The translations under genes and the position numbers were made by a program. DNA of 43,840 nt from Bacteroidota bacterium (GTDB lineage Bacteria; Bacteroidota; Bacteroidia; Flavobacteriales; Flavobacteriaceae): assembly GCA_003650305.1 (NCBI GenBank), contig QMOV01000009.1, forward strand, positions 1 through 43,840, written 5' to 3'. The notes beneath the pieces were generated by a model. The model saw only the letters and a program-made list of their open reading frames with translations, was not told the origin of the DNA and made no database searches. Below, piece by piece: positions 2,388-22,669 of the stretch; positions within the stretch are counted from its first letter, which is position 1, and each line of letters begins with the position of its first letter.

Positions 2388-2425
2388 AGTTTACAGTCCC
2401 GATAGTTATCGGGATCAGTTTACAG
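2388..2425 (+). repeat. REP-like hairpin with 9-bp flanking direct repeats
   Basis: The hairpin CCCGAT-AGTT-ATCGGG lies in 2397-2416. It is bracketed by two perfect copies of AGTTTACAG at 2388-2396 and 2417-2425. The arrangement looks like a short palindrome inserted with a target-site duplication. Alternatively AGTTTACAG is a tandem repeat unit in its own right, because a related TAAACAG follows. Confidence 0.6.
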
Positions 2426-20685: not shown

Positions 20686-20849
20686 GTTTATCAATTTTAT
20701 TTTTTGGCATGATTATTAGTGCTTCAAAGATGAAATAATAGTAGAGAATATAAAATGATATTTGTCATACGTTTATCTTAATCACTATCCTTTTATAGAA
20801 GTTAAAAAGGGTTTTGCAATTTGTAATTTTAACTCCTATTTTTGTTCTG

Positions 20850-21467
20850 ATGCAAAACGAACTTCAACAATATATTCCTCAACAGGCTTTGCAAAAAGTC
20901 TTACAGCTTTTAAGGCATGATAATTTAACTGTTATAATTAAAAAGGAGCGTAAAACACGTCATGGAGATTATAAAAGATTGCCAAGAGGAAAGCATCAAA
21001 TAACCATAAATTCTAACTTAAATCCGTATAGATTTTTAATTACATTAATTCATGAAATTGCTCACTTTGAAGCGTATAAAAAATATGGAAGATTTATTAA
21101 ACCTCATGGAATAGAGTGGAAAAGAAGTTTTCAGCATCTTATGTTACCTTTTATAAATCCTGAAGTTTTTCCGATTAAATTATTGCCACTTATCGCAAAT
21201 CATTTTAAAAACCCTAAAGCAACCAGCGATACAGACACTAAATTAGCACTAGCTTTAAAACAATTTGATGAACCAAACGATAAAACCTATATTTTTGAAG
21301 TGCCTTTTGGAAGCACATTTAAAATGTACAATGGAAAAGTATTTCAAAAAGGAAATAAACGCGTAAAGCGTTACGAGTGTATTGAGATTAATACAGGAAA
21401 ATTGTATCTTTTCAATCCAAATGCTGAAGTTGAAATTGTCATTCCTGCGAAAGCAGGAATCTCATGA
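20850..21467 (+). CDS. SprT-like zinc metalloprotein
   Basis: The 205-residue protein contains the SprT-family zinc motif HEIAH (His68, Glu69, His72) followed by HGIEWKRSF with the third probable ligand His86. SprT-like proteins resemble the SPRTN protease fold; bacterial members are mostly uncharacterised. ATG at 20850 (MQNELQQYIPQQ) is preferred over a TTG at 20814 that adds a non-conserved hydrophobic lead. The last nine residues, VIPAKAGIS, and the stop codon are encoded by a REP-like palindrome (21439-21462). The original C-terminus has therefore been replaced or extended by repeat DNA. Confidence 0.82.
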   Translation: MQNELQQYIPQQALQKVLQLLRHDNLTVIIKKERKTRHGDYKRLPRGKHQITINSNLNPYRFLITLIHEIAHFEAYKKYGRFIKPHGIEWKRSFQHLMLPFINPEVFPIKLLPLIANHFKNPKATSDTDTKLALALKQFDEPNDKTYIFEVPFGSTFKMYNGKVFQKGNKRVKRYECIEINTGKLYLFNPNAEVEIVIPAKAGIS

Positions 21468-21584
21468 AATGAAACTAAATTGTTATCTTAAGCGAGTCAC
21501 ATTGAGCTTGTCGAAGATAAGTTTAAAGGTCTTAATTATAAATTGAATAAACTAAAAAGCAGATTCCTGCTTTCGCAGGAATGA
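21439..21584. repeat. REPIN-like element: perfect 24-bp inverted repeat around 98 bp
   Basis: The palindrome at 21439-21462 (TCATTCCTGCGAAAGCAGG plus AATCT) recurs as its exact reverse complement at 21561-21584. Each arm is itself a hairpin with a GAAA-type loop. Inside, TTATCTT (21483-21489) and AAGATAA (21514-21520) flank GAGCTTGTCG, another common type of intergenic repeat sequence. The left arm encodes the end of the SprT-like protein. The right arm ends 5 bases before the manC start. Confidence 0.8.
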
Positions 21585-21589
21585 TAGAT

Positions 21590-22669
21590 ATGAACAAAAA
21601 TTATTACGCAATATTAATGGCTGGAGGTGTTGGATCAAGATTTTGGCCTGTAAGTACTCAAGATTTTCCAAAACAGTTTCACGACATGTTAGGAACTGGA
21701 GAAACGCTTATTCAGAAGACCTTTAGCCGTTTAAGTAAGCTAATTCCCATCGAAAATATTTTCATTTTAACCAACGAGCGATATAACGATTTGGTGTTTG
21801 AGCAATTACCAGAAGTTACAAAACGTCAGGTAGTTTTAGAACCTGCAATGCGTAATACTGCACCTTGTATATTGTATGCTTCTTTAAAAATTCAGAAGGA
21901 GAATCCAGACGCTGTAATGATAGTTGCACCAAGTGACCATTGGATTGAAGATGAAAATGAGTTTACTAAAAACGTGCAACAAGCATTCGATTTTTGTTCT
22001 AAAAATGATGCCTTAATGACACTTGGCATTACACCAACATTTCCGAATACTGGTTATGGATATATCGAATATGATAAGTCTGCAAACAACGCAATCAAAC
22101 CTGTAAAACAGTTTAGAGAAAAACCAGATTACAATACTGCAAAGGAGTTTATAACTCAAGGAAATTTTCTTTGGAATGCAGGTATTTTTATGTGGAGTGT
22201 TAATAGTGTGGTTGAAGCATTTAAAAGTTGCCAACCACAACTATTCGATTTATTTAAAAAGGGAATAGAGGTTTATAATACCGATTTTGAAGACGATTTT
22301 GTGCGCGATAATTATGGTAAAGCTGAAAATATTTCGGTGGATTACGCCATCATGGAAACCTCTGAAAGTGTATTTGTTCTTCCAGCTGAGTTTGATTGGA
22401 ACGACTTAGGAACTTGGGGCAGTTTGTACGATAAATTAGATAAAGATGATAATGGGAATGCTATTGTAAACGCTAGAACTTTATCCAAAGACGCTTCAGG
22501 AAATATGATAAGAACTAAAAGCAATAAAATAGTTGTTATTGATGGTTTGCAAGATTATATTATTGTTGATAAAGATGATGTTTTACTTATTATGCCTAGA
22601 TATAAAGAGCAAGATATTAAAGAAGTACTTCAAAAAGTTAAGAACAAGTTTGGAGAAAAGTACATATAG
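21590..22669 (+). CDS. manC: Mannose-1-phosphate guanylyltransferase
   Basis: The enzyme makes GDP-mannose from mannose-1-phosphate and GTP, for surface polysaccharides. The 359-residue protein has the nucleotidyltransferase signature AGGVGSRFWPVS near residue 12, EPAMRNTAPCILYASL, FREKPDYNTAKEF and WNAGIFMW. It lacks the C-terminal isomerase domain of bifunctional ManC/AlgA proteins and is a single-domain type. Start choice: ATG at 21590 (MNKNYYAILMAGG). The in-frame ATG at 21581 lies in the right arm of the REP-like palindrome and would add only MID. The palindrome leaves little room for a promoter, so transcription may come from the SprT-like gene. Confidence 0.9.
   Translation: MNKNYYAILMAGGVGSRFWPVSTQDFPKQFHDMLGTGETLIQKTFSRLSKLIPIENIFILTNERYNDLVFEQLPEVTKRQVVLEPAMRNTAPCILYASLKIQKENPDAVMIVAPSDHWIEDENEFTKNVQQAFDFCSKNDALMTLGITPTFPNTGYGYIEYDKSANNAIKPVKQFREKPDYNTAKEFITQGNFLWNAGIFMWSVNSVVEAFKSCQPQLFDLFKKGIEVYNTDFEDDFVRDNYGKAENISVDYAIMETSESVFVLPAEFDWNDLGTWGSLYDKLDKDDNGNAIVNARTLSKDASGNMIRTKSNKIVVIDGLQDYIIVDKDDVLLIMPRYKEQDIKEVLQKVKNKFGEKYI

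Follow-up and report, generated by a model that had tools for sequence, protein, structure and literature searches.

The window, by which we mean the whole stretch of 43,840 nt analysed here, is contig 9 of a 2.84-Mb draft genome (G000; 219 contigs, 94.9% complete). It carries an SprT-like gene and a co-directional manC-type gene, and the junction of the two is occupied by a pair of tagged palindromes (REPs) in inverted orientation, as the original prediction had placed them. The features of the junction are the following:

20814..21467, + strand: SprT-like gene (PF10263), with its last ten residues, IVIPAKAGIS, and its stop in or beside the left REP
21438..21462, + strand: left REP, with the tag GTC at 21438-21440
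21441-21448, 21449-21452 and 21453-21460, + strand: first stem strand ATTCCTGC, loop GAAA and second stem strand GCAGGAAT of the left REP
21461-21462, + strand: tail CT of the left REP
21463..21560, no strand: spacer between the REPs, 98 nt, A+T-rich, unique in the genome
21483..21520, + strand: degenerate inner stem TTATCTT..AAGATAA, enclosing CATTGAGCTTGTCGAA (21500-21515)
21561..21585, - strand: right REP, same sequence as the left REP except for the tag, ATC in place of GTC (one change)
21561-21562, - strand: tail CT of the right REP
21590..22669, + strand: gene for a manC-type mannose-1-phosphate guanylyltransferase (ManC-type nucleotidyltransferase)

An inverted-repeat search confirms two exact reverse-complement palindromes of 24 bp about 98 bp apart: the arms 21439-21462 and 21561-21584 are 24 nt each, 100% complementary and separated by 98 nt. 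Of the 34 inverted pairs listed for the window, no other among the 25 longest is perfectly complementary, and the chance expectation there for perfect 24-bp inverted repeats with a spacer of at most 150 is about 5e-7. Each arm is itself a hairpin with its tag pointing outward, reading GTC-ATTCCTGC-GAAA-GCAGGAAT-CT from the tag onward, with an 8-bp stem and a 4-nt loop. The left arm overlaps the final codons of the SprT-like ORF (IVIPAKAGIS*), which in the window are supplied by the REP. On the other side, alignment with congeners makes 21590 the probable start of manC, 4 nt after the right REP. The degenerate inner stem is perhaps a decayed second tagged palindrome. The inner core GAGCTTGTCG, which had been taken for another repeat-like core, is not demonstrably a genome repeat: CATTGAGCTTGTCGAA gives 3 matches with up to 2 mismatches, against 4 in a reversed control.

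The palindrome itself belongs to a large family. Its 20-nt core is found 5 times exactly in the own genome, 22 times with at most one mismatch and 33 times with at most two, and never in the reversed control. A tag-plus-hairpin pattern matches 26 times there and 27 times in the congener G088, with no matches in the controls. When stretches chosen around REPs are scanned for hairpin-plus-tag units, 31 are seen in 449 kb of the own genome, and 33 and 38 in 231 and 236 kb of two congeners, while first-order Markov simulations of both congener stretches together yield 0.3 units; a few of the units are palindromes of a different make-up that arose by chance. The expectation that the element is repeated thus holds for the palindrome (the 30 own-genome loci examined contain the exact 24-mer 3 times) but not for the full 146-bp unit, which is single-copy, with one full-length match and all remaining matches confined to the arms. 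In three genomes of the genus, 13 of 14 close REP pairs have their tags outward (head to head, HH), and these pairs, together with the tagged palindrome and its 33 copies, bear out the REPIN-like architecture that had been proposed. Tags in the genus are mostly TGTC and tails mostly CC or CT. Compact dimers have 29-34 nt between their tag-to-stem units, a distance that the 98-nt spacer of the window exceeds. Both arms share their loop sequence in 9 of 12 hand-listed dimers (background 0.24, P 3e-4), a list that leaves out two of the 14 close pairs, namely one head-to-tail pair and one HH pair with unlike loops (spacer 187), whose addition gives 9/13. Such sharing points to copying of the dimer as a unit or to arm-to-arm conversion.

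Two further features of these repeats were seen along the way. In one dimer of the own genome (L160 9881-10030, G000:C2), both arms have the same change, GGGAGG, which breaks their own stems while leaving the arms complementary to each other. There is also a second palindrome, TCCCGATARYTATCGGGA (window 2397-2414; also in L212, L218, L164, L168, L095 and others), which occurs 43 times in the own genome and 86 times in G088, and is present in 50 of 149 family genomes. Often, in 11 of 28 copies (vs 46 of 5600 random positions), it lies within a REP hairpin that is split, and three further copies are in long perfect stems resembling terminators.

The sprT-manC junction can be compared in three congeners (G151, G088 and G149), as the fourth, G150, is cut off there. 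All three have hairpins on either side of a spacer that cannot be aligned. In G151, ATTCCTGC with the loop GAAG is present on both sides; in G088 there are three hairpins with other stems; and in G149 a second palindrome, a degenerate form of TCCCGATARYTATCGGGA, lies inside the loop of the right arm. By eye, the SprT-like ORF of G088 and G149 appears to stop just before the left hairpin. Since a hairpin pair sits at the same junction in the three comparable congeners, the pair is inherited there: it has been kept vertically while its arm sequences changed, and is not a fresh insertion. In eight candidate alignments inspected, no clean empty site with a target-site duplication was seen, and one gave a clear presence/absence, a dimer of G088 that is missing from G000 and that could be a deletion.

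In itself the window element is ordinary and REPIN-like, and it is an HH dimer of a CGTC/TGTC-tagged REP that comes closest to the published family CGTC-1 (Di Nocera et al., 2013; PMC3733652). According to that survey, CGTC REPs have a C/TGTC tag, an 8-bp stem starting with AT, a 4-nt loop and a short tail, and occur mostly as HH dimers, commonly homodimers, with spacers of 20-100 nt and a tail consensus of CCA in most but not all cases (PMC3733652). The element has the same make-up: the tag is TGTC on the left arm, with ATC replacing GTC on the right; ATTCCTGC-GAAA-GCAGGAAT is an 8-bp stem with AT first and a 4-nt loop; the tail is CT; and the family has its 33 copies and 13 of 14 close pairs HH. 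The differences lie in the stem, which is ATTCCTGC here, and in the spacer, which at 98 nt is near the long end of the published range (PMC3733652). Among the hosts named in the same survey are N. aromaticivorans, A. lipoferum, S. meliloti, S. chlorophenolicum and the Neisseriae, as well as Bacteroidetes, with G. forsetii given as CGTC-positive (PMC3733652). The dRS3 repeats of Neisseria, classed there as CGTC-1, have a similar palindrome layout but a different stem, ATTCCCGC/ATTCCCAC instead of ATTCCTGC. The survey describes CGTC REPs as being without a dedicated transposase (Di Nocera et al., 2013; PMC3733652), whereas in the present data HH pairs enclose GIY-YIG genes.

These genes came to light in other genera, where an ORF of about 100 aa lies between or beside the REPs in 6 of 13 multi-REP places hand-picked from the genome listing. 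Pfam identifies it as a GIY-YIG protein (PF01541, E 5e-17 to 9e-15), and genes of that kind are present in 103 of the 149 family genomes. In size and sequence profile it is like the UPF0213-type GIY-YIG domain proteins (PDB 1zg2 and 1ywl; E 1e-7 and 4e-6). Among the 30 top family matches, a GTC-tagged hairpin in HH orientation lies within about 220 bp in 17 and on both sides in 9, six of the loci, which have no motif match, being counted through their match coordinates; the same is true of 0.2% of random positions in Y1 loci and of 10% in the same 30 loci. Another 21 family matches, chosen among the higher-placed entries of a longer list, have a tagged hairpin in 10 cases and on both sides in 8. 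Species genomes were scanned as well: there, the best 80 of 462 matches have an HH tagged hairpin within about 220 bp at 67 loci and on both sides at 52, in a sample that is chosen by top similarity and with a query alignment derived from the REP-led search. Random positions in the same loci (n=1415) give 5.4% for at least one side and 0.8% for both. Inward-facing hairpins occur at these 80 loci too (15 upstream and 17 downstream), and at 13 of them, including three Parabacteroides loci, a tagged hairpin was not found. Plasmid records agree, with 9 of 14 loci flanked and 8 of them on both sides (14 fetched of 34 with a match). Matches in the plasmid collection include Azospirillum lipoferum, Novosphingobium aromaticivorans, Sphingobium (to which we take S. 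chlorophenolicum to belong), Sinorhizobium meliloti and Neisseria; S. meliloti is not among the nine flanked loci of the 14 fetched. The REP-nuclease unit of A. lipoferum sits between sufB and sufC, and in N. gonorrhoeae a GIY-YIG gene lies between two tagged hairpins of the dRS3 kind, which are 190 and about 106 nt away. By association, then, tagged hairpins of the same class flank a GIY-YIG gene of about 100 aa in many bacteria, with their tags outward.

The flanking hairpins nearly all have C/TGTC tags, mostly followed after the stem by CCA or CTA, and their stems vary (ATTCCTGC, ATTCCGCA, ATGCTGAA, ATCCCAGC, ATTGCGGG and others). The variation is ordered. Loop length is equal on both sides in 67 of 72 cases (random pairing gives a mean of 33 and a maximum of 47), and loop type changes 16 times on the nuclease tree, vs a mean of 35 and a minimum of 28 after shuffling. 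Hairpin type therefore follows nuclease phylogeny, by the same kind of association. In the family, the ATTCCTGC REP is present in 12 of 12 genomes that have a nuclease of the close type (E up to 1e-40) vs 44 of 137 others (P 3.5e-6), and at least 5 REPs are found in 7 of the 12 vs 10 of the 137 (P 4e-5), in counts that include the REPs beside the nuclease gene itself. The relation of REP number to any GIY-YIG match is weak (16/17 vs 87/132, P 0.02). REPs with ATTCCTGC flank GIY-YIG genes of the close type in related genera, and one gene fragment in the congener G150. One genome, G044, has 8 nuclease matches; in it two REPs that point the same way enclose a phage-integrase-family gene (L268 2370-3701), which adjoins a GIY-YIG gene. 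On a Planktothrix plasmid (L341), a GIY-YIG gene is located between the gene of a type IIL restriction enzyme (MmeI) and DISARM drmA, and a GTC-tagged hairpin was looked for beside it and not found.

In the own genome, a protein query finds no close GIY-YIG gene in the 219-contig, 94.9% complete assembly, and a profile search gives two weak GIY-YIG matches (31 and 27 bits), neither with a GTC-tagged hairpin beside it. The congeners G151 and G150 have fragments of the close nuclease type at contig ends, one with a ATTCCTGC REP 19 nt upstream, and G088 has a GIY-YIG copy that contains an internal stop and is flanked on each side by loop-5 hairpins. Short-read assemblies readily lose genes that lie between repeats, so the nuclease may be missing from the assembly and not from the own genome itself. 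With no close nuclease found, the window copy is probably inert now.

The hairpins at the sprT-manC junction might be thought to act in the transcript as RNA with a structural or regulatory role, kept by selection, with its origin from a repeat being incidental. The two genes are co-directional, the second arm ends 4 nt before manC, the RNA fold is very stable (z -9), and hairpins stand here in the window as well as in three congeners, where differing stems still pair. However, it is the palindrome itself that makes the fold stable, the same hairpins are found at dozens of unrelated sites, and the congener versions differ in the number and spacing of their hairpins. In Rfam, all matches stay below the gathering score of their family and, taken as hairpin artefacts, were discarded as an identity; by eye, neither hairpin is followed by the U run of an intrinsic terminator. 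We consider selection for such an RNA improbable as the explanation of the element, which as RNA would nevertheless form a stable hairpin between sprT and manC, with a possible local effect on their mRNA. Less probable still, and very doubtful in our view, is the mover that had been proposed for it, a RAYT, that is a Y1 HUH transposase that would cut the tagged hairpin and move the pair. REPIN/RAYT systems do resemble the window in their paired, inverted, tagged palindromes, which are intergenic and non-coding; their tag is GTAG rather than GTC, and no RAYT is flanked by the window's REP. Across the family, PF01797 is somewhat commoner in genomes with at least 5 REPs (11/17 vs 48/132, P 0.03), a weak correlation, yet it is absent from 4 of 13 genomes with at least 10 REP matches (G085, G110, G131 and G141). 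The own genome has two PF01797 matches, so that a RAYT-like gene, as had been foreseen, does exist (L032; G000:C18, 1420-2075; 196 aa, Y1_Tnp, the sole full-length one found), but its flanks are not copies of this REP: an unrelated palindrome, AGACCTCACAGGTTTTTAAAACCTGTGAGGTCT, stands at either end of it, so that in the terms of the survey it is a TIR-flanked transposase (PMC3733652). Elsewhere in the family the REP is present at 0 of 62 Y1-transposase loci examined, and a GTC-tagged hairpin at the gene ends of 0 of 52 Y1 genes. For want of any flanking association, a RAYT was rejected as the mover. The other PF01797 match (L031; G000:C11, 971-1315) is a truncated IS200-like transposase ORF that runs into other sequence near a contig end; palindromes of the AGACCTCACAGGTTTTTAAAACCTGTGAGGTCT type also flank the Y1 genes L134 and L149 of other genera, and recur in stretches of the own genome.

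The reading that we prefer, with a probability of roughly two in three, is that the element belongs to a REP/GIY-YIG system, as a non-autonomous copy that has been kept vertically. In such a system, the REP-nuclease-REP unit would be the autonomous form. In single-stranded DNA, the nuclease would recognise hairpins of the REP type that goes with it and cut near the tag, and repair or copying at the breaks could then multiply both REP-nuclease-REP units and short dimers. The short dimers, including the one in the window, would be non-autonomous leftovers, able to persist after loss of the nuclease gene, as is consistent with the own genome. GIY-YIG enzymes cut DNA by hydrolysis without joining strands, which leaves transposition by the enzyme alone unexplained: the joining step would have to come from the host, or else the real role of the enzyme would be single-strand cutting in uptake and recombination. 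This last idea can be taken as a reading of its own, in which REPs are cut sites where the nuclease limits or shapes single-stranded DNA uptake and recombination, and are spread by ordinary recombination, not by transposition. It is favoured by the enzymes being nucleases and not transposases, and by the REP flanks of their genes, among the best 80 of 462 matches as well as in N. gonorrhoeae. Small GIY-YIG single-strand nucleases (Ssn), reportedly described by Chenal et al. in 2025, are said to cut a repeat (NTS) in Neisseria and to act on transformation, with Ssn homologues matched to their own sequences; this reported action fits as well. The several nuclease matches per genome (8 in G044, with flanks seen for part of them) and the insertion between sufB and sufC look instead like mobility. 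We regard the cut-site explanation as possible but unlikely, though less so than the two discussed before it.

Beyond the window, the preferred REP/GIY-YIG reading suggests a wider claim, on which we would lay even odds: that the CGTC superfamily is a RAYT-independent mobile system with a small GIY-YIG nuclease as its dedicated enzyme, in which REP-nuclease-REP units are autonomous and HH dimers, such as that of the window, are their miniature non-autonomous derivatives. It would extend over Bacteroidota, Pseudomonadota, Ignavibacteriota, Campylobacterota, Spirochaetota and several candidate phyla. Among the openly licensed literature, no paper joining GIY-YIG proteins to REP sequences was found. 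If the Ssn family is the same, the link to the enzyme has already been published for Neisseria, and the present data add how widely it holds, the HH flanks and the connection with CGTC REPs. The link bears on which enzyme, if any, serves these REPs, and the ATTCCTGC REP and the close nuclease are a ready pair for biochemical tests. If the association reflects function, one small family of nucleases would explain the origin and spread of a class of repeats present across many phyla, along a route that differs from RAYT transposition.
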